In this document: positions 3,410 to 30,614 of the stretch, piece after piece | Numbering within the stretch: position 1 is the stretch's first letter | How the letters are laid out: the number at the start of each line of letters is the position of its first letter | From: a virus | DNA length: 32,081 nt | IMG/VR virus record: IMGVR_UViG_3300009285_000258 | Span: 1-32,081 of that record | Strand: one strand, 5' to 3' | Notes under the pieces: model-generated | Seen by the model: only the letters and a program-made list of their open reading frames with translations | What the model was told of the DNA's origin: nothing | Database searches by the model: none | Position numbers and translations under genes: made by a program

Positions 3410-6400
3410 GACTTCCTCTTCTTTGTCTTTAATCTTACCTTATTCTTGGGCTTGCTTCCACCCTTGGGAGCTGCGGCTAAGACCTTCGCGGTAGCGCTCT
3501 GACCCCCGCCGTACTTGGTGAGCGAAAGTTTTACTTTGGTGGAGGGGATAGAGACCTTTTTTGAGGAGGTCTTGGACCTCCTGCCACTCCTGGAGCCGTA
3601 ACCGCCATAACCCTTCCCATACTTTAATTCGTTGAATACTTTACGCTCATCTTCCTCGTAGCCGAAGGTTACATTATCGAACTGATTGGCAGAAATCGGG
3701 TCGTAACCCTCAATTTCTCGTTTAGCATTTATGACTTTTAGACGAGCGGCAGTATATACGTCAAACTCGGCGCTAAGATTGGTGGTCGCAAACATCGCTT
3801 TAGCAGCATCGGGGTTCTTGTCTCTTAACTGGAAGTATCTTTCAACTAATAGGGGTTGCTTGGCAATTCCTATTTTGTTCCATGCTTCAGCTCTAGCCCC
3901 TTGAGAACTTTTGACACCGAGCTTTTTGAAGTATTCAGTATTGGCGGTTCCATAGGCTCTCTCAGCGGTCTCAAAAGCTGTATACCAGGGTTGGGTGGCT
4001 CGTAAGATTTCTTCTCGCTCTATATCTTCACCCGTCGGTCGTGAGCGCAACTCCAAAACCAATCTAACCTGTTTCTCGGTGGGCAACTTGTATATGGGGT
4101 CAACGGGTTTTTTATCTCTACTGTGGGCATTTAGAGCCTTACCCTTTAGAAAGTCATATGTTTTAAGACTATGATCCGCAGACACTAACTTCCATTTTTC
4201 GGGGCTAACTATATCGTAGAGTATCTTGCCCGTCTTTCGGTCTTTTTCCCTGCCCAAAAACTTGTCTAAACTGGGGGCTAATCCAGGGTTCTCTCGTTTG
4301 AACTTTTCGATATCTTTGAACTCGCCGTCGAAATATTCGTTTCTGCCACGCTGTTCTTCGGCTTTCTTGCGTCCGAACTGTTCGACCTTAACACCGCCGA
4401 CTCGCAGTAGTGATTGTGGGAGAGAACGGGTCTGACCGTAATAGTTTTCCTTCTTATCCAGTGAGGCTTTGATTGAATTGGCATCTGAGGCATACGGCAA
4501 GAGCGACATCCCCAAATAGTTGAGCCTATTCTTCTTTTGTTCGTCCTTGGATAACGGTTGAGATGGATATTTTTCGGCATCTGGGTCGGCTATTTGTTTA
4601 CCCCTGAAATCTCTATTGGCAACCAACGACGCTAATGGCCCTAGGAGTGGGTCGGCGCTAATGGCTTGTGGGCTTAAGTGGATACCAGTTTCGTCTTTTT
4701 TGAGTGGAATCTGCCATGGTAGGTAACGCTTGACATCCTCTTGCAACCCGCCAGTCAGGTCGTTGTAGGTTGTTAGGCCGAGCAACCGTCCAAGATTTAT
4801 AGCCCCCCACGGAGATTGAATCTCTAGGCTCTGATTGGTAAACGGTACTCTCGGAGCGCCCAATCGCTCTTCACGGGTTTTACGGTCTTCGGGGGTTTCC
4901 CCAGACATTTTGCTTGCTACATTTACCAGGGTGGTTGCAGCCACCGCCGATGTTGCTAGTCTAATTGGGTTGTCAGCAGCAGTATTATGAGCGATACGCA
5001 ATAGTTCGGAAGAGAATCGGATAAAGGCATTACCAATAAGGGGGGTTTTGGCTCCTTGGTCAAACATAAATCCAACCAAATCATAGTTTTGTTGCATGCG
5101 TCTCGTTCGTTCGGCAGCTTCAGCGATAGGTAGCCCTCGCTCCCTGAAGGTTAAATAGGTCGCCATTTTAGCTTTATCATCGACCGCCTGGTAGGTATCG
5201 CCAACAATCTTTATCCCTCGTTTTGCAATATTCTGTTTGGGTACTATATCGCCAGTACGGTAGAGTTCTTTTTGGATCATGCTGGGGCTAAATATACCGG
5301 CTCTGGTAGCTTCCAGAAACTCGGGGGAGTTAGATTTCATCATCTTGCCCCCCCTAACCCAATTCCGGTTAAGAGTAATCGGGTTGATGCCATTTAACCC
5401 GGCAATTAGGTTGTTAAAAGTTCTGTTTCCCAGTCTAACCCCAGGATTAAAGATGGTCAGGACTGCTTTTCTGGCTCGACGTAATCCTATGCGGTCGTAG
5501 CGATTTAGGAGCGAGATGATGTCTTGTGCCACACCGGTCTCGTAAATAAACCCTTGTAGATCCTCGGCTTGCTCTTTGAGAACGTGCTTACCTGCCAAAC
5601 TACCATAGGCCTTATTATCCGGTATCTGGACATAACCCTTCTTGGGGGCGGGTGAAATAGAACCATTTTTACTCAACCAGTCAGAATATTGAACGAACGC
5701 TTTATTGCGCTGGAACTGCTGGACCCTCATGGCGGTTAAGAAATAGGGGTCAGTTTCGGCTGCCTTGATTACCTCGCTTGGTATATCGGACAGGTCTTTG
5801 CGGGGCTTGAATATGTTAAGTTCCATCTTGTTGTTCTTGGCAATTTGGCGCATGGGGTCATCTTCAAAGAACTTGCTCATATCCCTAGGGAAGTAGGTAC
5901 CTTTGTTTGCCTTATATCTGGTTTTGTCTAGTAACCCCAGTTTATAATTGCCCTCATGGGTTATATCCATAATCTTGCGTAAGCGAGCGGTTTCTCTGAC
6001 CTCGGCTGATGTTATAGTCAACGGCTTACCGCCCCTAGCGGTATAAAGCTGCGGGTCAAGAGCTGACGCTACCGCTTCTGGGCGAACACCGCCCTGTATA
6101 GCTTTTTCGCCACTTTTAGCAATGGATTTTCCATAAACATCTCCGAGTTGTCTCTCGCCAGCATAAACTCCTAGCCTTGACAGCTCCTCGCGGCTCTTAC
6201 CGGCTTGTTTGGAGACTCCGACAACGAACCGTCCGGGTGTCCTAGCTATACGACTACCCGATTCCAAGGAAGCTCTTACTAATTTATCTGCCCCTCGTTC
6301 GACTGGCTGAGTAAGTTTACGGGCTTGACGGTCAATTGATAGCTTTTCGGCTAATTTGCCCAGTGGTCGTTCTTTATAGGCGACCACTCCCCTGGGGCCG

Positions 6401-7197
6401 AGTATAGTTTCTTCTAGTCGTTGGTCTATACTCCCCTGACCCGCTTTTCTAACAGGAGCTTTAACCGGGGGAAGAGCGGGGGCTGTCTTACCTACTTGTG
6501 GGGGTTGGGTCGGCTTGGGGGCTAGCTTCCCCACCGCCCCTACCTCACCGAGCGCGGCATTACCCCTAGCAGCTGCTCTCGCTCCGACCGAGATGCCTCG
6601 CAGCACAGCCGGGGCGCCCCTCAAGACACCTCCGCCTGCCGCCGGAAGGGCTACATCGGTCAAAGTGGGGTTTCGATTCTCGCTGAGCGCGGTTGAGGTT
6701 CCCAACCCGCCTCCCCGAAGTATCTCTGATCCGACCTTGAGAGCAGTACCCCCCGCTCGAAGGATCGGAGCAGAGACCAGAACGGTGCCTCCGATGTCTC
6801 CAACGGCTTCTTTCCCAGTCTTCCACTGCCGAAGACCCAACTGATCCTGGAGTGCGACTCGGTTAGGTTCACTCTTGATTCCGAGAGCTTTGTTGGTAGC
6901 CCGTGATGCACCCCCCAGGACGTTGTAAGAGAGGTTGAGCGGTTGCCTAACAACGTCTGTTGTAAATCCCCCAACACCCCCTAGGATCCTCCCTGCGCCT
7001 GAGTTTATAAACTTGGGCTTGGGGCGGGCTAGGGACTGAGCTCTGGGTCCGTAGTAACCAGAAAGCTCCCGCTGCCTGATCTGCGGATTTGTAGCCCGGA
7101 AGTTACCGCTCGAGCGCGGAGGCGTTAGGTCAATGTAATCCTGCAGCGGACGGAGGGCCTTGCCAGCCTCTCGGGAGAGCCATGAGAGTACGCTCAT
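3388..7197 (-). CDS. Very large virion-associated protein (putative internal or ejected protein)
   Basis: At 1269 residues this is the longest gene in the window, placed just after the tail genes. The N-terminal 200 residues contain hydrophobic Gly/Ala-rich stretches (GGVGGFTTDVV, GGTVLVSAPILRAGG), then a proline-rich linker. Residues 250-800 are mixed and basic, with a hydrophobic segment near LATSAVAATTLVNVAS. The C-terminal 70 residues are strongly basic and low-complexity (KPKNKVRLKTKKRK). No enzyme motif was found. Its size, position and alternating hydrophobic and basic regions resemble the internal virion or ejection proteins of short-tailed phages and polyvalent phage proteins. That assignment is inference from context; no domain was identified. 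Confidence 0.8.
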   Translation of the reverse strand: MSVLSWLSREAGKALRPLQDYIDLTPPRSSGNFRATNPQIRQRELSGYYGPRAQSLARPKPKFINSGAGRILGGVGGFTTDVVRQPLNLSYNVLGGASRATNKALGIKSEPNRVALQDQLGLRQWKTGKEAVGDIGGTVLVSAPILRAGGTALKVGSEILRGGGLGTSTALSENRNPTLTDVALPAAGGGVLRGAPAVLRGISVGARAAARGNAALGEVGAVGKLAPKPTQPPQVGKTAPALPPVKAPVRKAGQGSIDQRLEETILGPRGVVAYKERPLGKLAEKLSIDRQARKLTQPVERGADKLVRASLESGSRIARTPGRFVVGVSKQAGKSREELSRLGVYAGERQLGDVYGKSIAKSGEKAIQGGVRPEAVASALDPQLYTARGGKPLTITSAEVRETARLRKIMDITHEGNYKLGLLDKTRYKANKGTYFPRDMSKFFEDDPMRQIAKNNKMELNIFKPRKDLSDIPSEVIKAAETDPYFLTAMRVQQFQRNKAFVQYSDWLSKNGSISPAPKKGYVQIPDNKAYGSLAGKHVLKEQAEDLQGFIYETGVAQDIISLLNRYDRIGLRRARKAVLTIFNPGVRLGNRTFNNLIAGLNGINPITLNRNWVRGGKMMKSNSPEFLEATRAGIFSPSMIQKELYRTGDIVPKQNIAKRGIKIVGDTYQAVDDKAKMATYLTFRERGLPIAEAAERTRRMQQNYDLVGFMFDQGAKTPLIGNAFIRFSSELLRIAHNTAADNPIRLATSAVAATTLVNVASKMSGETPEDRKTREERLGAPRVPFTNQSLEIQSPWGAINLGRLLGLTTYNDLTGGLQEDVKRYLPWQIPLKKDETGIHLSPQAISADPLLGPLASLVANRDFRGKQIADPDAEKYPSQPLSKDEQKKNRLNYLGMSLLPYASDANSIKASLDKKENYYGQTRSLPQSLLRVGGVKVEQFGRKKAEEQRGRNEYFDGEFKDIEKFKRENPGLAPSLDKFLGREKDRKTGKILYDIVSPEKWKLVSADHSLKTYDFLKGKALNAHSRDKKPVDPIYKLPTEKQVRLVLELRSRPTGEDIEREEILRATQPWYTAFETAERAYGTANTEYFKKLGVKSSQGARAEAWNKIGIAKQPLLVERYFQLRDKNPDAAKAMFATTNLSAEFDVYTAARLKVINAKREIEGYDPISANQFDNVTFGYEEDERKVFNELKYGKGYGGYGSRSGRRSKTSSKKVSIPSTKVKLSLTKYGGGQSATAKVLAAAPKGGSKPKNKVRLKTKKRKSWKSLIA

Positions 7198-7200
7198 GGC

Positions 7201-7986
7201 TTAACCTCCGTAGAGAAACTTGTCGAGCTCCGACTGAGGTTTATTCTGAGCCTGCCGGGTAGATGTGCCCCCTATATTGGCGTTTGGCGAGAACCGTGCG
7301 ATCCCCGGAGAGGCCATCAGCGGGGTGCTGGTGTTAATTGCCTTCGGCTGGAGCGTCGGGATGCTCGCGTTGAGACCCGAACTGTAGTCGCCGCCAGTAT
7401 AGCTTCCCCCGCTCAAATTATAGTCAGAGAGTGCTTGTGCGAGGGCATCCTGGTTAGCAGCCTCAAACTGGCCCTTGGCGAAGTCGATCTTGGTCTGATT
7501 ATTTCCAAAGTCCGTGTTAGTGTCGTCCACGCCCTGTTTGTAGGCACTTAGAATCTTCTGGTTGTAGTTGCCAATCTGGGACTGGAAGGCATCGGGAGAG
7601 ATCTGTGAGAAGTAAGACGAGTTCTGCTGATCAGCGGTCTCCCTGGAGGACTGGAGATCTCGGAGGTTGCGGTCCCGAGTATCTCTAATCATGTTCTGCT
7701 GGTCTTCAAAGCTCAAGAGTCCGGCCTGATACGCTCGATTGATAGCGGCCACCGTTCGGTTGTATCCTTCTAACGAAGCCTGGAGCTGTTCGGCAGTATA
7801 GATAGTCGATCCCCCAGTATCTGTGCTAGCCGTACCATCTCCAGTCGTGGTATCCGACGAGGTCGATATGGTGCTGCCGTCAGAAGGCTGGAGAGAACCA
7901 TAGGCAGGCTGCAAGTCGTAGCTAGATCCCTGTAGGTAAGGGTCCGATCCCTGTAGTGTGCCGTAAGCATCCTGTAATACTGCCAC
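7201..7986 (-). CDS. Virion-associated protein with N-terminal LQ repeats
   Basis: The 261-residue protein starts with GTG. The first 35 residues repeat a short unit (YGTLQGS, PYLQGS, YDLQPA, YGSLQPS), followed by a Ser/Thr/Gly/Asp linker and a Gln/Asn-rich helical middle (residues 65-175). The C-terminus is Ser/Gly/Asn-rich and ends in ELDKFLYGG. It lies three bases before the giant virion-like protein and behind the tail spike-like gene, so a structural or ejected role is likely. A weak SD (AGAGAG) precedes the start. The GTGTATATA motif lies about 30 bases upstream and directly follows the upstream stop. Confidence 0.68.
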   Translation of the reverse strand: MAVLQDAYGTLQGSDPYLQGSSYDLQPAYGSLQPSDGSTISTSSDTTTGDGTASTDTGGSTIYTAEQLQASLEGYNRTVAAINRAYQAGLLSFEDQQNMIRDTRDRNLRDLQSSRETADQQNSSYFSQISPDAFQSQIGNYNQKILSAYKQGVDDTNTDFGNNQTKIDFAKGQFEAANQDALAQALSDYNLSGGSYTGGDYSSGLNASIPTLQPKAINTSTPLMASPGIARFSPNANIGGTSTRQAQNKPQSELDKFLYGG

Positions 7987-8811: not shown

Positions 8812-10401
8812 TTATGTGACTGTCATCTTATGGGTCGAGGGGAAGGCGTAGTGAGACAGTGGCTTGAAGGTCGTGGTGATGGTATCGAGTCGCCAGTCTC
8901 CCGAAGATGAAATCTTGTACTGGACGGCAAACTTCTTGTCAGATACAGACATTCGGCGGGGAACACCCCGAGCGCTGTTAATGGTAGTGATGGTATTGGT
9001 AGCGCCCCCCAGAACCTTGACTCCCAAAGCATCTCTACCGAGCCCTCCCTGGGGGCGGGTCTGCGAGATCGAGCTTGATCCTGCCGTTTGGTTATCGTCA
9101 AAGATCACCGTAACCGTGATCGTGCCCTCGACGAGACCAAAGACAAACGTGTGGTCAAAGTAGACCTTCAGCACATCTGGCATATCCTCGTCGAATGACT
9201 TGGTGTTGAAATACGAGGAGATCGTAGTGCCGTCATCGGTCGTCCCGGAATACAGCTTGTACACCGCAGAGCTGGTGGGATGGCCGAAGTAGAGGTACTG
9301 AGCATTGGTCGAGTCGATGTACACCTGTGCTGCGTTGGCGGCCATGTTGCGCCAGTCCAGCCAGCCACCGTAGCGAATATCGTAGGCAACCACAGAGTCG
9401 TTGTTGGTACCGAACTGCGAGTAGAAGAGATGGTATTTGAAGTTGAAGTAGCGCCCCACCAACTTGGCTTTGTTGGTGGCCGTGAGGTTGGTAAACACAC
9501 CCTGGATCTTGGCCGACTTGTTGGTAGTACGTATCGAGATGTAGTCGACCACCTCTCCCAGCGCGTATACTCCGTCATCGGCGGCGAAATACAGGTCTTC
9601 TTCTAGCTGATCGATCGAGCGATGCGAAACACAGCCGACGGCATTGGTGATGAGGGTGATAGTAAAGGTGTTGGCCGCAGTGGCGGGAACAATCTTGTAG
9701 ATCGCATCCCGTAGGAAGACATAGAGAGCGTCTTTGAAGACCCGCAGTCCGGTGATCTCCGTTCCTGATCCGAACCGAAATGAGATCCAGCCCGATGTCG
9801 CATCCGAGAAGTCGGCCAACTTGTTCACCAGACTCCCACCGGTCAAGAGTTGCTCCGAATACTGACCCGAGAAGTTCAGTCGGTCTAGGTTGGTTTCGTC
9901 CTGTACCCAGAGTCGTTGGTTGTAGTAGGTTGGGTAGTACCCGATGGTGCCGTTGGTGGTAGTGTTCCAAGCGGAGCCGTCCCAATGCTTCATCGCGTCG
10001 GTGCCATTTCCAACGTAGAAGTTTCCGGAGGCTTGACAGCCGTCCATATTGATGTTCGTGAAGGTTGTGCCAGTAACCTGGGTCCAGGCCCCACCGTCCG
10101 TGGAGTGTTTCACGATGACGTTGCTCGCATTAGAGACGAAGGCTAGTGCCTGATGATAGGAGGCAGTATGCAACTCCCCTATCCCCTTGACCCCACTAGC
10201 ATACGAGCCCACCGTACTGATCTGGGCATATCCCTGACGGTTACCGATCCCCTCGGCGCCCTTGAAGTCGCAATTCGACATATCGGGGGACTCGCTGTCT
10301 TTGATTTGACGGACACCTAAATAGCTGTTCCAGCCACCCGCAAAGTTGGAGCGGAATTGTTTCTGGAGCTTTCCAGCCCCCCTGTTCAAGTTCTTAGCCA
10401 C
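8812..10401 (-). CDS. Tail nozzle/stabilisation protein, beta-propeller-like
   Basis: The 529-residue protein begins with a signature seen in podovirus nozzle and P22 gp10-like proteins: FAGGWNSYLGVRQIKDSESPD, MSNCDFKG and GNRQGY, a conserved type of N-terminus that introduces a beta-propeller. The rest is made of repeated beta strands with Trp/Tyr turns (KHWDGSAWN, RLWVQDE, DALYVFLRDAIYK, FAADDGVYALG), as expected for propeller blades. It would form the distal part of a short tail beneath the adaptor encoded just upstream, whose gene it overlaps by eight bases. Family assignment is by pattern only. Confidence 0.72.
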   Translation of the reverse strand: MAKNLNRGAGKLQKQFRSNFAGGWNSYLGVRQIKDSESPDMSNCDFKGAEGIGNRQGYAQISTVGSYASGVKGIGELHTASYHQALAFVSNASNVIVKHSTDGGAWTQVTGTTFTNINMDGCQASGNFYVGNGTDAMKHWDGSAWNTTTNGTIGYYPTYYNQRLWVQDETNLDRLNFSGQYSEQLLTGGSLVNKLADFSDATSGWISFRFGSGTEITGLRVFKDALYVFLRDAIYKIVPATAANTFTITLITNAVGCVSHRSIDQLEEDLYFAADDGVYALGEVVDYISIRTTNKSAKIQGVFTNLTATNKAKLVGRYFNFKYHLFYSQFGTNNDSVVAYDIRYGGWLDWRNMAANAAQVYIDSTNAQYLYFGHPTSSAVYKLYSGTTDDGTTISSYFNTKSFDEDMPDVLKVYFDHTFVFGLVEGTITVTVIFDDNQTAGSSSISQTRPQGGLGRDALGVKVLGGATNTITTINSARGVPRRMSVSDKKFAVQYKISSSGDWRLDTITTTFKPLSHYAFPSTHKMTVT

Positions 10402-12590: not shown

Positions 12591-13282
12591 CACTCCCATT
12601 CGGCGTACTCCTTGTCTAGTATGGCCTGCGTCTTGGCGATCTCTTTTAGTTTGTTCTTGGAGGTGTTGCCCGAGTGTCCCCGCTGGATGCCGAGGGGCTT
12701 CGGGATCACCTTGTAGGTGTAACCGGCCTTCCACCACGCCCAGCAGAGCCAGCCATCATCGTTGACTCGCCAGTCCTCTCTATATGGGTTCTCCTCGAAG
12801 CACTTGCGATGGGCGGTAATACAAAAGTGCGGCCACGCGGCATTGTTCTTGATGTCTTCAAGGGTCGTCTTGGTCGGCACCTGCATCACCTGCGAGAACT
12901 CCGGGGTTAAGTGCTTGTCAGATGTCCAGTAATACGAGGTACAGAAGTCCACCCTCTCCAGGGCTTTGACATTCTCCTTTATCCTATTGGGTAACATTAC
13001 ATCATCGCTGTCCATGACGGCTATAATCTCCCCCGTCGAAGCCTTGACCCCGGCGTTTCTGGCCTTGGAGATCCCGCCGTTCTCTTTCAGCTGGATGACC
13101 TTAACCCGCTTATCAGACTTCGTGTAGAAATCGTAAAGGTTCCGAACCCCATCTGTACTGCCGTCATCGACAAGAACAATTTCGGTGTTCTTATACGTCT
13201 GCGCCTGGATAGACCGAATGCACTCTGGGAGGTATGTTTCGCGGTTGAATACGGGGACGACGATTGAGACGAGCGGCTTCAC
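12590..13282 (-). CDS. Glycosyltransferase family 2
   Basis: This is a textbook GT2 catalytic domain of 230 residues. It starts VSIVVPVFNRETYL, has VLVDDGSTDG at residues 37-45, GGISKARNAGVKAS for donor binding, and VMDSDD at 89-94 as the metal-binding DxD. WRVNDDGWLCW near residue 175 supplies the late acidic catalytic segment. No membrane helices are present, so it is a soluble transferase. The ATG overlaps the DNA methylase stop, and its own TGA overlaps the small methyltransferase start. Confidence 0.88.
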   Translation of the reverse strand: MKPLVSIVVPVFNRETYLPECIRSIQAQTYKNTEIVLVDDGSTDGVRNLYDFYTKSDKRVKVIQLKENGGISKARNAGVKASTGEIIAVMDSDDVMLPNRIKENVKALERVDFCTSYYWTSDKHLTPEFSQVMQVPTKTTLEDIKNNAAWPHFCITAHRKCFEENPYREDWRVNDDGWLCWAWWKAGYTYKVIPKPLGIQRGHSGNTSKNKLKEIAKTQAILDKEYAEWE

Positions 13283-13944
13283 AGCAACACCTCCTGCGCC
13301 AAGCGACTGTTGGCTATCTGAACGTATTTTTCATCAATCTCTATGCCCAGATACCGCCTACCTAGTCTTTTTGCGGCGTAAAGCGTGCTCCCCGATCCGG
13401 CGAAGGGGTCTACAACCAGGTCTCCCCCCTCTGTCGTTGCTTCGATCAACCTACCCAGTAGATCAACCGGCTTCTCGTTTGGGTGCGACAGATCACCCGG
13501 TGATACTCGCTGTGTGCGGAATACGGTAGTGGGTCTCTTGCCTGGGAACTGGAATTTACCCTTCGTGGCAAACCAGATAACCTCGTGCTGGGGGCCAAAC
13601 TCACCCGTGAGGTCTCCCATGCCATGTACTACCTTGTCCCATATAATTTGACTGCGTACCTTAAACCCAGCCCCCTCGATGGCCGACCTAAGGGCGTCTT
13701 GAACGTCCCAACGACAGAAGCATAGTAGCGATCCGCCATCCTTCGTAATCCTGTAAGCCTCCGGCAGCCAGTCTATCGCTGGCTTATCGTCATTGGCAAT
13801 CTTGTCTTTGCGTTGCCATTCAGTCCGCCTGGCGGACTGGTAGCTTATCCCGTAGGGGGGGTCGGTCAGAACAAGTTGTGCTACGCTATCGCCAATCTCA
13901 CCAAGGGCTGTGGCGCAATCGGCATGGATTAGATTATCTATCAC
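13279..13944 (-). CDS. DNA adenine/cytosine-N4 methyltransferase (beta class)
   Basis: The 221-residue protein has the catalytic motif DPPY at residues 28-31, before the SAM motif DPFAGSGST at 179-187. HPNEKP at 154-159 is the conserved segment ahead of motif I. Catalytic motif first and SAM motif last is the beta-class order of the N6_N4_Mtase family. It methylates an exocyclic amino group in DNA, probably protecting the phage genome from host restriction. No partner endonuclease is adjacent. It lies between two glycosyltransferases, joined to both by ATGA overlaps. The recognition sequence cannot be predicted. Confidence 0.88.
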   Translation of the reverse strand: MIDNLIHADCATALGEIGDSVAQLVLTDPPYGISYQSARRTEWQRKDKIANDDKPAIDWLPEAYRITKDGGSLLCFCRWDVQDALRSAIEGAGFKVRSQIIWDKVVHGMGDLTGEFGPQHEVIWFATKGKFQFPGKRPTTVFRTQRVSPGDLSHPNEKPVDLLGRLIEATTEGGDLVVDPFAGSGSTLYAAKRLGRRYLGIEIDEKYVQIANSRLAQEVLL

Positions 13945-19596: not shown

Positions 19597-19952
19597 TTCT
19601 GATCGTTATATACACCCGCCATTATCAAAAGGCCCTCCATCATCTCAATTTCGGAGTAATTTTCAGCGTGATAGGCGATCCGGTCGTCAAAAGAGACCTC
19701 GGAGAGGCCGTTATGGCGTCCCAACTGGGTCTGATCGCGCAAAATGTTACGTAATCTGTTACGCATCACGGTATTTGCCCAGGTCCGCAGAGTTACGCCC
19801 CTGGTATGGTCGAAGTTGGGGAGCTTCACCCAGAGGTGCATCCGCAACTCCTGAGCCAGATCCTCGGCATCGTAGCGGGGGACAAAATACTTGCGTGATA
19901 GATAGACGATGTCTTTCTCGAGAAGCTCGAGTGCTTGTTCGGTGTAGCTCAT
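19542..19952 (-). CDS. Sigma-70 region 2-like protein, possible late sigma factor
   Basis: The 136-residue protein matches sigma region 2 over residues 10-75: RYDAEDLAQELRMHLW, then KLPNFDHTRGVTLRTWANTVMRNRLRN, equivalent to the region 2.1-2.4 helices of sigma factors. No region 4 follows; the tail is polar and runs 55 bases into the portal gene. T4 gp55 is a known late sigma reduced mainly to region 2. By analogy this protein could direct RNA polymerase to phage late promoters, possibly the GTGTATATA junction motif. An ATGA overlap couples it to the aminotransferase. The role is inferred; an HTH protein of other function is possible. Confidence 0.68.
   Translation of the reverse strand: MSYTEQALELLEKDIVYLSRKYFVPRYDAEDLAQELRMHLWVKLPNFDHTRGVTLRTWANTVMRNRLRNILRDQTQLGRHNGLSEVSFDDRIAYHAENYSEIEMMEGLLIMAGVYNDQNGETRVNFQETRALQGGV
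19607..19615 (-). promoter_or_regulatory. GTGTATATA motif before portal, inside the sigma-like gene
   Basis: This copy is preceded by GCG rather than a stop codon because it lies within the last part of the sigma-like gene. It ends 10 bases before the portal ATG, the same distance as at the spike gene, and again no SD is visible. Confidence 0.5.
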
Positions 19953-20545
19953 TTCCAGGGAGATTGCTGGGATAGGTCAGGATAATCTGGCTCGGGGGGC
20001 AACGGGTGGTTGTATTTCGGCAGGAAGTACAATCGCACTAGCGCATCAGCCGCATCCCGTGGGCTCATGGGGCAGTGCCACCCCAGAATCGGGTTGTCAT
20101 CCTTCGGGGCCACGCCCGGCTTTCGGCCATCGGCCCGCGCCCGCTCAAAGAACTCTTGGGCATCAGGGTCATCGTGGAGGATCACCCCACCGTAACCCAA
20201 GTTAAAGGTCTTGCCCCAGTGGAGAGAGAGGCAAGTAAAGGTTCTGGGTTTGTACATATCTGACGTACAAAGCCTCGCCGAGTCGATGATCGGGTAGGGT
20301 TTAAGCTCGTACTGGCCTGTGTGCTGCCAGTCGAGATCCTCAAACTTGACCGTCCCCCCAGCGTGGACGATGCTCATCGGCACCCCGATGTAGGTGTGCT
20401 TCGGGATAGTGACTTCTCTAACCTGTAAGTAACAGCAAGACAGAAGTAGGGCATTTGTGCAAGAGTTGACAACGGCGGCAAAGGGTGATCCACAGTAATC
20501 GGCGATCTCCCGCTCGAAGTCGAGGACAGGCTGGTAGGGGTTCAT
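19949..20545 (-). CDS. DegT/DnrJ/EryC1-like aminotransferase, half length
   Basis: The 198-residue protein has the N-terminal PLP domain of sugar aminotransferases. AVVNSCTNALLLSCCYL is the cofactor phosphate loop, IPKHTYIGVPMSIVHAGGTVKFEDLD follows, PIIDSAR holds the cofactor Asp at about 88, and SLHWGKTFNLGYGGVI holds the Schiff-base Lys at 112. Family members are usually about 370 residues; the C-terminal small domain is mostly missing. It overlaps the dehydratase by ATGA, and together they resemble the PseB/PseC or PglF/PglE pair that makes 4-amino-4,6-dideoxy sugars. Whether the short form is active is unknown. Confidence 0.75.
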   Translation of the reverse strand: MNPYQPVLDFEREIADYCGSPFAAVVNSCTNALLLSCCYLQVREVTIPKHTYIGVPMSIVHAGGTVKFEDLDWQHTGQYELKPYPIIDSARLCTSDMYKPRTFTCLSLHWGKTFNLGYGGVILHDDPDAQEFFERARADGRKPGVAPKDDNPILGWHCPMSPRDAADALVRLYFLPKYNHPLPPEPDYPDLSQQSPWK

Positions 20546-21306
20546 TCTTCCTCATGGCTCCAAAGCAAACGTTCACGGAGTTTCTCTCCGGGCCTCATCC
20601 CGACCTCAGCAACTCCAGGTTCGTAGTCCGAGGCTTTTTTGTATCCATGCCGCTTCAGAACTTCGGCTAACAGGTCGAGTAGTCTGATCTCTTTACACTG
20701 CGGGATTATCAGCCTCTTCCCGGCTTTATACATATCCCAAATCTGGTCGGCCGCCTCAAAGTCGTTGATCCAGTATCGAACCATCCGTTCGTCGGTTATC
20801 GGGACGGGTTGTTTGTTGTTGATCTTTTCTTCCCAAAGAGGGATGACCGAACCGGAGGAGGAGAGGATGTTGCCCAGTCTTGCTACAGAGCCACCATAGT
20901 GTTGTACTAGCTTTTCTCCAAGGGCCTTGGTGAAGCCATAAGTGCCCATGGGTTCCACAGCCTTATCCGAGCTCACGAAAAGGATGTCGGCTCCGCCGAA
21001 GTTGGCCTCCTTGAGCACCGCTTGGAGTTTGGTCAGGTTATTCTCGATGAAGGCTTCCGGGTTCTCTTCCCCGAGGTCTACGTGCTTGTAGGCGGACAGG
21101 ATAATAATCACATCAGCCGGGTCCTTATCGTAGCGCCAGTTGGCGTAGTCATCTAGAACAAAGCGACAGTCTGGGTAAATACCCCGGAGCTCCGCGACGG
21201 CCCACTCCGAGGAGTCCCAAATAGTTAGGTCGTGATCCTTGTGCAGCCGGGCGACGAAAGATCGTCCGAGACTGCCTGCGCCCCCGAATAGAATAATGTT
21301 GTTCAT
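20542..21306 (-). CDS. Nucleotide-sugar 4,6-dehydratase (PseB/CapD-like)
   Basis: The 254-residue protein has a Rossmann GGAGSLGRS at residues 8-16, ILSAYKHVDLGEENP (the AAYKHV-type motif of this family), VSSDKAVEPM at 111-120, catalytic YGFTK at 123-127, and VARLGNILSSSGSVIPLW. These are diagnostic of UDP-GlcNAc inverting dehydratases such as PseB, FlaA1 and CapD. MRPGEKLRE near the end is also conserved. The product would be a 4-keto-6-deoxy sugar, the substrate for the aminotransferase in the next gene. It is shorter than typical (about 330), mainly in the C-terminal region. Confidence 0.82.
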   Translation of the reverse strand: MNNIILFGGAGSLGRSFVARLHKDHDLTIWDSSEWAVAELRGIYPDCRFVLDDYANWRYDKDPADVIIILSAYKHVDLGEENPEAFIENNLTKLQAVLKEANFGGADILFVSSDKAVEPMGTYGFTKALGEKLVQHYGGSVARLGNILSSSGSVIPLWEEKINNKQPVPITDERMVRYWINDFEAADQIWDMYKAGKRLIIPQCKEIRLLDLLAEVLKRHGYKKASDYEPGVAEVGMRPGEKLRERLLWSHEEE

Positions 21307-23679: not shown

Positions 23680-23715
23680 ACCCTATTGGTGAATACGCCA
23701 ATACCCTATTGGTGA
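23680..23715 (+). repeat. Direct repeat ACCCTATTGGTGA, two copies
   Basis: Copies at 23680-23692 and 23703-23715 are identical, with a 23-base period; between them GCCAATACC is a partial inverted copy. The core TATTGGTG recurs inside the RepO gene at 26378-26385 and, inverted, at 26423-26430. The repeats may be binding sites for a replication or packaging protein. Confidence 0.6.
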
Positions 23716-23727
23716 GGATGACAACAG

Positions 23728-24264: not shown

Positions 24265-24293
24265 TTGACAACGTGTTTATGGAGGAGTATGTT
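24265..24293 (+). promoter_or_regulatory. Early rightward promoter, sigma-70 type
   Basis: A perfect -35 (TTGACA, 24265-24270) is followed by 17 bases and TATGTT (24288-24293) as the -10. It sits in the divergent gap after TerS and is the best housekeeping promoter in the window, so it should drive the early operon from about 24300. The -10 overlaps a small hairpin (GTATGT/ACATAC, 24287-24303). Confidence 0.7.
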
Positions 24294-24322
24294 GGACACA
24301 TACCGAGGAAGTAGCCGGAGGA

Positions 24323-24413
24323 ACCCCACAAAAGAAGCACCTAGCGACCAGCACCGCGGTTAGATCACCGCTTACCAAAGGATTAGCTGCCACCGCTCAC
24401 CGCTTCTAGGGGT
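24323..24413 (+). other. Leader stem U0 of the inverted-repeat chain
   Basis: ACCCC and AGAAGC (24323-24338) pair with GCTTCT and GGGGT (24402-24413), giving 5+6 pairs around an internal loop. Inside is a perfect hairpin GCGGT/ACCGC (24356-24371) and two of three copies of TCACCGCTT (24365-24373, 24397-24405; third at 24903-24911). No gene is enclosed. It is the weakest member of the chain. Confidence 0.45.
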
Positions 24414-24473
24414 CATCAGTTAACAACATATCATAGATCACAAGCTCCGAGGTAGTAAATAGGAGACGAGAAA

Positions 24474-24626
24474 ATGCAGATTGTAGTAACATGCCTCAAG
24501 GTAGCGAACGGCTGGAATGCGGTATGGTATCGGCCTAGCACTGGCGAATTCTACCGCGAAACCGCCGGATCAAAGACCGCCACCATCGAGAAGCTAGTCT
24601 CCACCTTGGAGGCAAAGCTAGCTTAA
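24474..24626 (+). CDS. Early hypothetical protein, 50 residues
   Basis: ATG at 24474 has a good SD (AGGAG, seven bases before it) and opens 50 codons: MQIVVTCLKVANGW at the N-terminus, then WYRPSTGEFYRETAG and a Thr/Glu/Lys helix ending EAKLA. It is probably a small alpha/beta protein; no family is recognised. It is the first gene after the early promoter, so it is likely expressed soon after infection, as are many host-takeover and anti-defence proteins, though no such activity is shown. The whole gene lies inside inverted repeat U1, and its stop codon is in the loop of a perfect hairpin. Confidence 0.62.
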   Translation: MQIVVTCLKVANGWNAVWYRPSTGEFYRETAGSKTATIEKLVSTLEAKLA

Positions 24627-24635
24627 TTGCTAGCT
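24616..24635 (+). other. Perfect hairpin containing the stop codon
   Basis: AGCTAGC, loop TTAATT and GCTAGCT form a seven-pair perfect stem; the TAA stop of the 50-residue gene is in the loop. No T-run follows, so it is not a classical terminator. Its last two bases overlap the 3' arm of U1. Confidence 0.55.
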
Positions 24636-24648
24636 CGGAGCTTGTGAG

Positions 24649-24932
24649 ATAGATAGCAGCAGCGAGAGCGAGCAGAAAGGGACAAACCAATGACCTATGT
24701 TAAGTCTGAAGTCGTCAAGCGAACCAAAAACACCATCAAGGGTCACTTCAAGCTCTCCGACAAATCGATCACGTTCTTCTCGATTGACAAAGAGTATGGA
24801 TGGCAGCAATGGGGTAACAACAGAGACAATCTAAGCCTAACCGTAGATAGGGTAGATACTCTTCAAGGAGAATTACTAGACTTCTAACCCAACCGCACGC
24901 AGTCACCGCTTGCTCTCACTCATGCTATCTAT
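24649..24932 (+). other. Inverted repeat U2 bracketing a 65-residue gene
   Basis: Arm 24649-24673 pairs with arm 24908-24932: ten pairs, a 2x2 internal loop, two pairs, one mismatch, then ten pairs including one G.U. The 5' arm ends 16 bases before the enclosed start codon; the 3' arm starts 20 bases after the stop. The arms have no sequence relation to those of U1 or U3. Confidence 0.7.
24690..24887 (+). CDS. Early hypothetical protein, 65 residues
   Basis: The protein is small and probably beta-rich: KRTKNTIKGHFKLSDKSITFFSIDKEYGWQQWG followed by NLSLTVDRVDTLQGELLDF. The alternation of charged and hydrophobic residues suggests a compact beta barrel or sandwich. It is not recognised. AAGGGA supplies a moderate SD. 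It is the second early cistron and lies wholly inside inverted repeat U2. Like its neighbours it may be a host-interaction gene; this is inference from position only. Confidence 0.65.
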   Translation: MTYVKSEVVKRTKNTIKGHFKLSDKSITFFSIDKEYGWQQWGNNRDNLSLTVDRVDTLQGELLDF

Positions 24933-24980
24933 AGATCATCTCTACCAAGTGAACCGAGGAAAGTCAGGAGAACAATCACC

Positions 24981-25163
24981 ATGAGTGAAGATTCCATTGA
25001 CCGCAACCCCCAACATGACGAGTGGCTGGATGAGCTTTTCCCAGAAATTACCATCGGACAGCTCATCTACTCGCCCAGCGAAACCCTCTACTCAGTCGAT
25101 CCTATCGCCTATCGGCAGTCCGTGCTTGATTGGGAGGATCAGGAGGGAAAAGACAATGACTAA
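24981..25163 (+). CDS. Early acidic hypothetical protein, 60 residues
   Basis: The 60-residue protein is strongly acidic (SEDSIDRNPQHDEWLDELFPE at the N-terminus, DWEDQEGKDND at the end) with a short hydrophobic middle (ITIGQLIYS). Small acidic proteins made early by phages can mimic DNA or bind host enzymes, but nothing here proves that. CAGGAG gives the SD, 11 bases before ATG. The last eight bases overlap the next gene, so the two are coupled and share the U3 inverted repeat. Confidence 0.62.
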   Translation: MSEDSIDRNPQHDEWLDELFPEITIGQLIYSPSETLYSVDPIAYRQSVLDWEDQEGKDND

Positions 25164-25356
25164 AAAAGACTTCGAGCTAATTGCGGAGAGCCTCCGAGAG
25201 TCATTCAACGACCTAAAACAGTTTGACCTTAGAGACGAAGTCGTACACGAGGCGTTTGAGCACATCGTCAACAACCTCGCCCTCGCCCTATCAGTAACAA
25301 ACCCCAAGTTCGACCAAGCCCGATTTATTAAGGCTTGCGGAGTCGAACCAGAATAA
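25156..25356 (+). CDS. Early helical hypothetical protein, 66 residues
   Basis: With ATG at 25156, preceded by AGGAGG, the protein is 66 residues and almost wholly helical (KKDFELIAESLRESFNDLKQ, VVHEAFEHIVNNLALALS), ending FDQARFIKACGVEPE. The arrangement is of a type common in unannotated phage proteins; no function is known. A longer in-frame extension exists but overlaps the previous gene completely and lacks an SD. It is the second gene inside the perfect U3 inverted repeat. Confidence 0.65.
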   Translation: MTKKDFELIAESLRESFNDLKQFDLRDEVVHEAFEHIVNNLALALSVTNPKFDQARFIKACGVEPE

Positions 25357-25389
25357 ACTAATCGCTCCTCGGTTCACTTGGTAGAGATG

Positions 25390-25495
25390 ATAGTCTTTCC
25401 CCGCCGCGTGGCAGTAGGTGCCTTAATGTGGCAGCCAACGCCGCTAGGCTAAATATAGTTGGATAGCCTACTGCTGCGCGCAGGGGAGAGACTAT
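25390..25495 (+). ncRNA. Long imperfect hairpin U4 without a gene
   Basis: Arm 25390-25419 pairs with 25466-25495: 13 pairs, a 2x2 internal loop, then 15 more, with four G.U pairs when read as plus-strand RNA. The apical part folds again: CCAAC (25435-25439) with GTTGG (25458-25462), capped by GCC/GGC around GCTA. The total is about 106 bases with no start codon and SD pair. This looks like a stable structured RNA, possibly a processed small RNA. No known family is recognised. Confidence 0.6.
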
Positions 25496-25498
25496 TCC

Positions 25499-25551
25499 TA
25501 GCTGATCGGTAGGTCTTGGAATTTGAGACTCCTTCTCCTACTGGTCAGCTA
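25499..25551 (+). ncRNA. Hairpin U5 without a gene
   Basis: Arm 25499-25513 pairs fully with 25537-25551 (15 pairs, two of them U.G or G.U) around a 23-base apical region with a possible short inner stem (25514-25517 with 25525-25528). It begins three bases after U4 ends and lies 30 bases before the next gene. No T-run follows, so it is not a classical terminator. Confidence 0.55.
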
Positions 25552-25581
25552 TAGAGTAAGCGTAAGAAAGGAGGTGAAAGC

Positions 25582-25716
25582 ATGTTAGGCAAGTACGCAC
25601 GAGGTTGGAAGAAAGTCAATTCCGCGAAAACCGACTGGGTTTTGACGTTCGCATTCGGAGCTTGTGGAATTGTGATCGGATGGTGGCTGGCCTGGATAAT
25701 GTGGTGGGCAATATGA
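25582..25716 (+). CDS. Small membrane protein, 44 residues
   Basis: ATG is preceded by an almost perfect SD (AAGGAGGTGA). The protein has a basic N-terminus (LGKYARGWKKVNSAKTD) and one long hydrophobic segment rich in Trp (residues 18-44, WVLTFAFGACGIVIGWW then LAWIMWWAI), so it should insert in the cytoplasmic membrane with its N-terminus inside. Its TGA overlaps the next ATG. Holin, superinfection exclusion or an accessory membrane role are all possible; nothing decides between them. Confidence 0.65.
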   Translation: MLGKYARGWKKVNSAKTDWVLTFAFGACGIVIGWWLAWIMWWAI

Positions 25717-25916
25717 AAAAGCTACACGTAATCGCAATCGGATTGCTGTTAGTCATCGTGGGAGCCGTACTGCTCGTGGGGATAAGAGATCAAGTGGCCT
25801 CTGGGTCCACGATTGCTCCGCAGCGCGGGACTATACAGCCAGCCAAGCAGGACTATCAGTATCAAGGTGACTGGGCTTACTTAATTCAGCCCGCCGTGGG
25901 TGGAAACAACCGATAA
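25713..25916 (+). CDS. Small membrane-anchored protein, 67 residues
   Basis: Starting at the ATG that overlaps the previous stop (ATGA), the protein has MKKLH, a 19-residue membrane segment (VIAIGLLLVIVGAVLLVG), then a polar, probably periplasmic or extracellular part containing Tyr and Gln (PAKQDYQYQGDWAYLIQP). No lipobox Cys is seen, so it is a signal anchor rather than a lipoprotein. It is coupled to the 44-residue membrane protein and followed by a strong terminator. A two-component lysis or exclusion pair is one option. Confidence 0.65.
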   Translation: MKKLHVIAIGLLLVIVGAVLLVGIRDQVASGSTIAPQRGTIQPAKQDYQYQGDWAYLIQPAVGGNNR

Positions 25917-25923
25917 CACCACT

Positions 25924-25957
25924 AACCCACAAGGAAATCAAGCCTTGTGGGTTTTTG
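25924..25957 (+). terminator. Strong rho-independent terminator
   Basis: AACCCACAAGG (25924-25934) and CCTTGTGGGTT (25943-25953) form a perfect 11-pair stem with loop AAATCAAG, followed by TTT. It ends the first early unit; RepO downstream therefore needs its own promoter or antitermination. Confidence 0.88.
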
Positions 25958-26063: not shown

Positions 26064-26495
26064 ATGGCAAGGCCACAGGTCAAAGAGGGATATATCAGAA
26101 TAGCTACTGAGTTATGGGAAGCTCTGGCTATGGCTCAGATAAGTGGTACTGATTTTAGGGTACTGTTCGCTATCAGTCGACTCACCTATGGCTACCATAA
26201 GAAGTCTGCCAAGATCAGTTACGGTAGGGTGGCCAAAATGTGCGGGCTAGACCGTAGCAACGCTTTTAGATCTATGCATAGCCTAAAAAAGCTAGGAGTT
26301 ATTTATTCACAGGATACTGCCCCAGGAGAGGCGCGAGTTTGGGGGCTCGTCAAAGACTACGAGCAATGGGGAGTGGCTATTGGTGAACCCACCACTAGCA
26401 AAAAGCCCCCTATTGGCAAGGACACCAATACCCCCAAGCCTACTAGCCCTAAAAAGAGGCCAGCGAACTATGACCCAATCTGGGACTCCTTCTAA
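26064..26495 (+). CDS. RepO-like replication initiator
   Basis: With ATG at 26064 (SD AGGAGGA) the protein is 143 residues. Residues 5-80 match the N-terminal domain of lambda O-type proteins: QVKEGYIRIATELWEAL, then DFRVLFAISRLTYGYHKKSAKISYGRVAKMCGLDR and a recognition helix (SNAFRSMHSLKKLGVI). That is a winged HTH that binds origin repeats. The C-terminal 50 residues are Pro/Thr/Lys-rich; lambda O uses its C-terminus to recruit helicase loading factors. The coding sequence contains TATTGGTG-type repeats, as the lambda origin lies inside O. The DnaB-like helicase is two genes downstream. Confidence 0.82.
   Translation: MARPQVKEGYIRIATELWEALAMAQISGTDFRVLFAISRLTYGYHKKSAKISYGRVAKMCGLDRSNAFRSMHSLKKLGVIYSQDTAPGEARVWGLVKDYEQWGVAIGEPTTSKKPPIGKDTNTPKPTSPKKRPANYDPIWDSF
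26378..26430 (+). repeat. TATTGGTG iteron-like sites inside the RepO gene
   Basis: TATTGGTG occurs at 26378-26385 and inverted at 26423-26430, with the variant TATTGGCA at 26411-26418. The same octamer is in the TerS-TerL repeats at 23684-23691 and 23707-23714. In lambda the O protein binds iterons inside its own gene, so this is a candidate origin. Confidence 0.4.
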
Positions 26496-29785: not shown

Positions 29786-29925
29786 ATAATCTACGAATTG
29801 TCCTTGGTTCTATTATAATCTTCGTCTACGCCCTTCTGGGAATCATTATTTTGTTTTGGGGTTTGATTTGGTTCGCAAACTTACTCCTTTGGCTCTCAGG
29901 CTTACTTCCTTGGCCGCAATCATGA
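29782..29925 (+). CDS. Small membrane protein, 47 residues
   Basis: ATG at 29782 follows SD GAGGAGAG and overlaps the previous stop (ATGA). The 47 residues are almost entirely hydrophobic: LRIVLGSIIIFVYALLGIII and LFWGLIWFANLLLWLSGLL, enough for one long or two close-packed membrane helices. Its stop overlaps the next start as ATGA. It could be a holin or a membrane accessory protein; evidence is only the hydropathy. Confidence 0.62.
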   Translation: MNNLRIVLGSIIIFVYALLGIIILFWGLIWFANLLLWLSGLLPWPQS

Positions 29926-30614
29926 CTAAGCACTACAAGTTCCTCAACCTCAAGCGAGGTAAGATAGTCTCAGCTTCCGGCAATCAGAAGTGGAAGCTGG
30001 GCGAGTGGGTAAAGCATGACGGGAAGTTGGAGATGTGCAGTTCCGGTCTTCACTCCTCCCCGACTGTCTACCAAGCCCTCTCCTACGTCCCAGGAAGCGT
30101 GCTATCTCAAGTCGAGGTCAAGGGTAAGAGCCTCAAGGATAAAGATAAGTGGTGCTCCTCCGAGATGCGGATCATCCGGGCTTGGAAATGGCAGAAGAAA
30201 GACTCTATGGCTTTGGCTATCTTTGCGGCAGAGTCGGTTCTAAAGAACTTCGAGAAGAAGTATCCAGATGATAAACGACCCCGTGAGGCTATCGAGGCTG
30301 CCAAGAAGGTTCTAGCCAGTGATACAGCTAAAAATAGAGAGGCCGCCTCCTCCGCCTCCTCCGCCGCCTCCTCCGCCTACGCCGCCTACGCCTCCTCCGC
30401 CTACGCCGCCTCCGCCGCCTCCTCCGCCGCCTCCTCCGCCTCCTACGCCGCCTCCGCCGCCTCCTCCGCCTCCTCCTCCGCCTCCGCCGCCTCCTACGCC
30501 TCCTCCGCCGCCTACGCCGCCTCCTACGCCGCCTCCTACGCCTCCGCCCTTATCAAGAGAGTAGACCGATGGATGACTGACCACATTAAGGAATTGGGGG
30601 AGATAAAATCGTGA
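29922..30614 (+). CDS. DUF7666-like protein with an Ala/Ser/Tyr repeat tail
   Basis: I chose ATG at 29922 because it forms an ATGA overlap with the membrane protein. The N-terminal 110 residues (HYKFLNLKRGKIVSASGNQKW, LEMCSSGLHSSPTVYQALSY, SVLSQVEVKGKSLKDKDKW) match a pattern I recall for DUF7666-type phage proteins, in which a cysteine-containing core is followed by Ala-rich repeats. Residues 141-209 consist only of Ala, Ser and Tyr (30342-30548). A charged C-terminal helix follows. The function is unknown; the tail may be a long Ala-packed coiled coil. Confidence 0.7.
   Translation: MTKHYKFLNLKRGKIVSASGNQKWKLGEWVKHDGKLEMCSSGLHSSPTVYQALSYVPGSVLSQVEVKGKSLKDKDKWCSSEMRIIRAWKWQKKDSMALAIFAAESVLKNFEKKYPDDKRPREAIEAAKKVLASDTAKNREAASSASSAASSAYAAYASSAYAASAASSAASSASYAASAASSASSSASAASYASSAAYAASYAASYASALIKRVDRWMTDHIKELGEIKS
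30342..30548 (+). repeat. Three-codon tract (GCC, TCC, TAC), 69 codons
   Basis: From 30342 to 30548 every codon is GCC (Ala), TCC (Ser) or TAC (Tyr), in frame for 69 codons. The other possible codon of this pattern, GAC, is absent. The tract is purine-poor on the plus strand and resembles an expanded microsatellite. It should be prone to slippage in 3-base steps that keep the frame. Confidence 0.9.

Follow-up and report, generated by a model that had tools for sequence, protein, structure and literature searches.

A chain of abutting inverted repeats around small genes in a viral contig, and a possible likeness to rRNA leader-trailer helices

The locus and its enclosed small genes

The window, by which we mean the whole stretch of DNA that was analysed, is a virus contig of 32,081 bases. 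Its leftward genes encode terminase, portal-like and head functions, its rightward genes encode replication protein O, a DnaB-like helicase and an exonuclease, and between these two groups lies a run of small rightward genes embedded in inverted repeats. A sequence-only reading had singled out one of these repeats, described as a perfect 26-bp match across a 405-base interval with two overlapping small genes, and an inverted-repeat search of the window bore this out: the arms at 24935-24960 and 25366-25391 are complementary at 26 of 26 positions, with 405 nt between them. The enclosed ORFs, 24981-25163 (60 aa) and 25156-25356 (66 aa), overlap by 8 nt and can be taken as real genes, because both of their proteins, P0001 and P0002, have relatives in other phages. 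The picture of a lone repeat did not survive, since a region scan at lowered threshold placed it as one of five inverted-repeat domains lying end to end between 24438 and 25551 (24438-24647, 24649-24932, 24935-25391, 25390-25495 and 25499-25551), with gaps of 1, 2, -2 and 3 nt. What calls for explanation is therefore a whole chain of helices that close genes, not a single isolated repeat; its features are as follows.

24265-24293, plus strand: sigma-70-type promoter-like site (TTGACA-17-TATGTT), matching the consensus at 10 of 12 positions; the first arm lies about 145 nt downstream; a likely, putative transcript start
24420-24425, plus strand: TTAACA hexamer, equal to the rrn boxA core; the first 5' arm follows after 12 nt; may be a boxA-like element
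24438-24461, plus strand: closing helix 1, 5' arm, from the repeat search; pair probabilities 0.87-1.0 over 24438-24457, except 0.0 at a single G-G mismatch
24474-24626, plus strand: ORF of 50 aa in helix 1; SD GGAG directly 3' of the arm; no relatives found
24624-24647, plus strand: closing helix 1, 3' arm, starting at the stop codon
24649-24673, plus strand: closing helix 2, 5' arm, 1 nt past helix 1
24690-24887, plus strand: ORF of 65 aa in helix 2; no firm relatives
24908-24932, plus strand: closing helix 2, 3' arm, from the repeat search
24935-24960, plus strand: closing helix 3, 5' arm (the repeat first singled out), 5 nt before the SD
24981-25163, plus strand: P0001, the upstream gene of helix 3; related proteins occur in Vequintavirinae and other phages; phrog_37123, E 5e-9
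25156-25356, plus strand: P0002, second gene in helix 3; predicted all-helical, pLDDT 90
25366-25391, plus strand: closing helix 3, 3' arm, 9 nt past the stop codon
25390-25418, plus strand: helix 4, 5' arm; no ORF inside, 48-nt loop
25467-25495, plus strand: helix 4, 3' arm, from the repeat search
25499-25551, plus strand: hairpin 5, last abutting domain; arms 25499-25513 and 25537-25551
25582-25716 and 25713-25916, plus strand: two small unenclosed ORFs (44 aa and 67 aa) downstream of the chain, read from the sequence and the ORF list
25924-25953, plus strand: intrinsic-terminator-like hairpin; likely candidate transcript end

With a promoter-like site before it and a terminator-like hairpin after it, the chain probably lies on a single rightward transcript of about 1.7 kb (about 24300-25955). 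The promoter-like site is weak on its own, given that eight such sites were found in the region against a mean of 3.9 in shuffles.

Domains 1-3 each enclose exactly one translation unit, from the Shine-Dalgarno sequence (SD) through the stop codon, and domains 4 and 5 have no gene inside. In the gene-bearing units, 12-20 nt separate the 5' arm from the start codon, and the 3' arm starts between -3 and 20 nt from the stop codon. The 5' arms end 0-5 nt before the SD, which is merely touched by helix 1 and left free in units 2 and 3. Because the arms hug the SD and the stop codon in this manner, each loop is scarcely longer than a complete translation unit requires. The gene-closing helices contain 22-26 Watson-Crick pairs and close loops of 158-405 nt, and the arm sequences differ between neighbouring units. 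A side observation, read directly from the sequence, concerns the 5' arms of helices 1 and 3 (24438-24466 and 24945-24972), which look alike (CAAG..CCGAGG...AGGAGA); their 3' arms show matching differences, as would be seen if one unit had been derived from the other with compensating changes.

Rarity of the layout and its recurrence in other phages

An exact 26-nt inverted repeat within 1.1 kb is expected by chance about 8e-9 times in the window, and the best stem score observed, 27.6, compares with a maximum of 19.5 in 400 locally shuffled windows. Stems scoring at least 16 number four within 1.06 kb and zero elsewhere in the 32 kb; shuffled windows held a mean of 0.185, and none of the 400 reached four. 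An earlier scan with different scoring likewise returned 4 stems against 0.017 expected. Domains 1-4 are the sole stems in the window with a score of at least 14 and a loop of about 50 nt or longer, a scan outside which domain 5 falls as a short-loop hairpin.

P0002 belongs to a family of small proteins with the near-invariant start MTKKDFELIA, and a relative of it is bracketed likewise in each of two further viral contigs, G001 (locus L016) and G002 (locus L006), the arm sequences being unrelated. In G001, a contig of 143 kb, 27-29 bp surround the relative encoded by ORF 5001-5312, with departures that are mainly G-U; other bracketed units of G001 contain ORF 3664-3837 and a pair of ORFs, and gene-closing helices lie at 93877-94138 and 107491-108258 of the contig. 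In G002, 26 bp surround ORFs 4799-5008 and 5001-5255, a pair overlapping by 8 nt whose second member is the P0002 relative. Most P0002 relatives carry no bracket, which indicates that the bracket is not required for the gene; a genome scan for P0002 added one Nocardiaceae MAG, also unbracketed.

The exact arm sequence was absent from the viral contigs, DNA similarity to known phages was not detected, and the collections searched contained no near relative of the window. Relatives of TerL and of the helicase, sought as guides to near kin, amounted to one each and were too distant, the TerL one being without the chain. Rarity was surveyed in two sets of 79 viral contigs, each set centred on a different common phage protein (689 kb and 1.03 Mb, about 1.7 Mb in all), where brackets with both arms between genes were nearly absent; those scoring at least 16 were at L115, L136 and L202. 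Gene-closing helices were not found in rV5-like phages/Vequintaviruses, the relatives through P0001, or in cluster H mycobacteriophages, the relatives through P0002.

Several candidates were set aside. Those at L202, L246 and L136 are repeats of palindromes or RBS elements, a 15-bp pair at L009 is borderline, with a 3' arm that falls in the next ORF, L056 has a gapped duplex score only, and the G001 pair 91434/91845 is doubtful, its motif being repeated there.

Other structures noted during the survey are reported here in their own right. At L115, a perfect 17-bp inverted repeat (2267-2283 and 2711-2727) surrounds one minus-strand ORF (2404-2706); in the sense orientation its 5' arm seems to include the Shine-Dalgarno sequence, so this may be an icaR-like arrangement, not a bracket that spares the SD. 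In L173 (Mycobacterium phage Predator, NC_011039.1), gaps between small genes hold a tRNA-like minihelix of acceptor plus T-arm, e.g. GGGTG...CGGGGTTCGACTCCCCGACACCC, mostly with a short hairpin after it (near 5423-5540, 5902-5980, 6474-6566, 6886-6981, 7241-7336 and 9007-9149). ARAGORN reports no tRNA for these minihelices and Rfam only a weak tmRNA fragment; they look like RNase P/Z-type punctuation of phage mRNA.

Predicted fold and base-pair bias

When 24430-25560 was folded as RNA, all five domains were closed in both the MFE and the centroid structures, with a z score of -7.5 for the sense strand and pair probabilities near 1 in the closing helices. The antisense strand folds as strongly (z -9.9), and total folding energy therefore cannot choose the strand; as a strand test this comparison is uninformative, reflecting coding composition.

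Across ten stems scored symmetrically, with G-T and A-C at equal cost, the sense orientation holds 18 G-U against 3 A-C (two-sided p 0.0015), in a set that was picked after the data were seen and that includes the doubtful G001 pair 91434/91845. Leaving the window out gives 12 G-U against 1 A-C (p 0.003), while the window alone, with 6 against 2, is not significant. Since DNA sites should show G-T and A-C equally on the sense strand, the excess favours selection on RNA as the better reading; strand-biased C-to-T change could add to it but would have to be strong. Of the explanations first offered for the perfect repeat, strong selection holds up, whereas recent origin or gene conversion between the arms is not needed, given that neighbouring arms are imperfect yet keep RNA pairing through G-U and not A-C.

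A model of end-paired messages and its competitors

rRNA maturation is built on helices that close whole genes, and isolated regulators such as icaR and the type I toxins also use them; in ordinary genes the layout has seldom been sought, and no description of chained, abutting gene-closing helices in mRNAs was found in the open papers searched. The leader-trailer helices around 16S and 23S rRNA are cutting sites for RNase III. The reading proposed here, to which we assign a probability of about 50%, is that the chain is a row of leader-trailer helices closing translation units, probably host RNase III sites that leave paired, protected ends. The rightward transcript would fold as a row of abutting domains, in each of which the sequence before the SD would pair with sequence at or after the stop codon, making the translation unit the loop of a 24-26 bp helix. 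The helices would form once their trailer arms leave RNA polymerase and would be cut by host RNase III as those around 16S and 23S rRNA are, so that the polycistronic RNA would come apart into mRNAs of one unit each, still base-paired at their 5' and 3' ends, which may confer resistance to decay from either end. With 5' arms that end ahead of the SD and 3' arms that start no earlier than the stop codon, ribosomes translating the loop could leave the helix largely undisturbed. The enzyme is presumed to be the host's because no RNase III gene was found in the three phage records (the window record, G001 and G002). Additionally, a boxA-like element that precedes the first arm may, like its counterpart in rrn operons, keep the leader bound to the polymerase.

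If this model is true, cutting a polycistronic RNA into separately stable messages would take no more than a simple rule of layout (arm, SD, gene, stop, arm), and the arm-gene-arm pattern would offer an easy annotation signature in other phages; the mechanism is highly testable. In its general form, some phages would combine an antitermination boxA with chained leader-trailer helices, from which host RNase III and an rrn-type polymerase complex mature stable, end-paired unit mRNAs, a proposal that is tentative and rather doubtful.

The likeness to rRNA operons extends to flanks that are complementary over more than 17 bp and close a long loop, to consecutive enclosed units on one transcript, and to variable arm sequence. 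The differences are that the loops here hold protein-coding units of 50-126 codons instead of rRNA, that the arms of neighbouring units abut, and that the boxA match of the window is weak; Rfam gave neither rRNA nor any other family for the region at gathering score. In E. coli and its kin, boxC, the 5' strand of the rRNA leader-trailer helix, lies 18-19 nt after boxA (PMC10250234). Two units of G001 have a boxA-like element, GAAACTTAACAATTT, with TTAACA 15-16 nt before the arm, and a third unit has GTTCATTAACAATTT beside it, which matches the E. coli boxA at 13 of 15 positions. The G001 matches (11-13 of 15) are better than that of the window (8 of 15), for which a universal boxA rule fails on the full consensus. 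What the window does hold is the TTAACA core 12 nt before the arm, with p about 0.001: the hexamer occurs three times on the plus strand of the 32 kb, and about 0.1% of positions have one 10-20 nt upstream. A pattern search with the G001 promoter and boxA-like element returned 22 stretches, one being G001 itself; the other 21 are without a strong bracket and look like chance. The rRNA-like part of the model is accordingly offered as a lead, while the closing helices as such are well supported.

Phage transcripts punctuated by intergenic double-stranded RNA have a precedent in T7, where RNase III sites between the early genes are local intergenic hairpins, whereas the helices here span a gene. 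Cluster K mycobacteriophages have extended start-associated sequences (ESAS), inverted repeats of about 17 bp that accompany some of their small genes; both arms lie upstream of the gene and follow a shared consensus (PMC3203893). In the present chain the gene lies between the arms, and the arm pairs differ from one another.

Pairing of leader with trailer could instead act as a translation switch that keeps the mRNA closed, and quiet or stable, until processing or a factor opens it, as in hok/AapA1-type systems and icaR. The pairing of 5' with 3' sequence around small genes is common to both cases. In icaR of Staphylococcus aureus, regions flanking one coding sequence pair intramolecularly into double-stranded RNA, and this 5'UTR-3'UTR pairing both blocks translation and makes an RNase III site (PMC3868564), through a short motif, UCCCCUG, that covers the SD and represses. 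In the window, no 3' arm pairs across the SD in that way: helices of 24-26 bp stop short of it, apart from that of unit 1, which just reaches it, and they recur from unit to unit. Type I toxin mRNAs such as hok and AapA1, which rely on long-distance folding (PMC6733600), are likewise small genes with paired mRNA ends, but their helices are shorter and unchained, and from sequence alone, in which an antisense RNA would not show, neither an antitoxin RNA nor toxin similarity was found here, P0001-P0004 giving no match to a toxin family. A switch is therefore an unlikely, though precedented, account.

It is quite improbable that all of 24438-25551 is a structured RNA element, whether noncoding or dual, and the helix 1 and helix 2 ORFs only incidental to it. 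Those two ORFs lack relatives and helix 4 and hairpin 5 enclose no gene, features that would suit such an element, as would a bracket in G001 around about 360 nt without a convincing ORF. Yet the helix 3 genes have clear relatives, every ORF has an SD at the right spacing, and Rfam, as noted, returned nothing at gathering scores. The G001 bracket itself (64192-64597, equivalent to L025:10192-10597) has a 23-bp closing stem with 3 G-U pairs, a good promoter-like sequence upstream and no Rfam family, in a phage that is tRNA-rich; a phage noncoding RNA is possible there.

At the DNA level, the inverted repeats might be recombination or transposition sites of invertible or mobile gene cassettes. 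A perfect 26-bp repeat around a gene pair invites this comparison, hix-type sites being also 26 bp long, and such sites need no internal sequence similarity. We nevertheless consider it very improbable. Tyrosine (PF00589) and serine (PF00239) recombinases were absent from the window record (G000), G001 and G002, contigs that may be incomplete, as was Y1 transposase, and no transposase appeared among the window ORFs scanned against Pfam. The flanks outside the helix 3 arms (CTATCTATAG and AGTCTTTCCC, read from the sequence) contain no target-site duplication, so the initial judgement that the repeat is not a transposon stands. The suggestion of a mobile cassette fared worse: arms vary from unit to unit, most relatives of the enclosed gene are armless, the three phages with armed homologous genes share no arm sequence, and mismatches lean to G-U in the sense orientation. 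Finally, although the window is a single metagenomic contig, chance or assembly artefact is hardly credible, chance being excluded by the shuffles. A fold-back artefact would not readily yield the imperfect arms of the neighbouring domains, and misassembly does not give five distinct, mostly imperfect repeats that are fitted to gene borders and recur independently in other contigs.

Elsewhere in the window, terminase-adjacent genes on the minus strand encode a sugar epimerase (Polysacc_synt_2) together with part of a DegT-type aminotransferase, and the structural genes have an N6/N4 DNA methylase in their midst (19949-21306 and 13279-13944, both minus strand). GC-rich tandem repeats of 9/12 nt at 30342-30548, in ORF 29856-30614, encode a tract rich in Ala, Ser and Tyr; outside this tract the protein matches DUF7666 and bears a weak likeness to Imm5. 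In lambda, the origin iterons lie inside the replication O gene. Four palindromic copies like CTATTGGTGnnnnCGCCAATA were observed in the window at 23683-23726 and 26377-26430, two of them inside the replication-protein O gene and two between the terminase genes.
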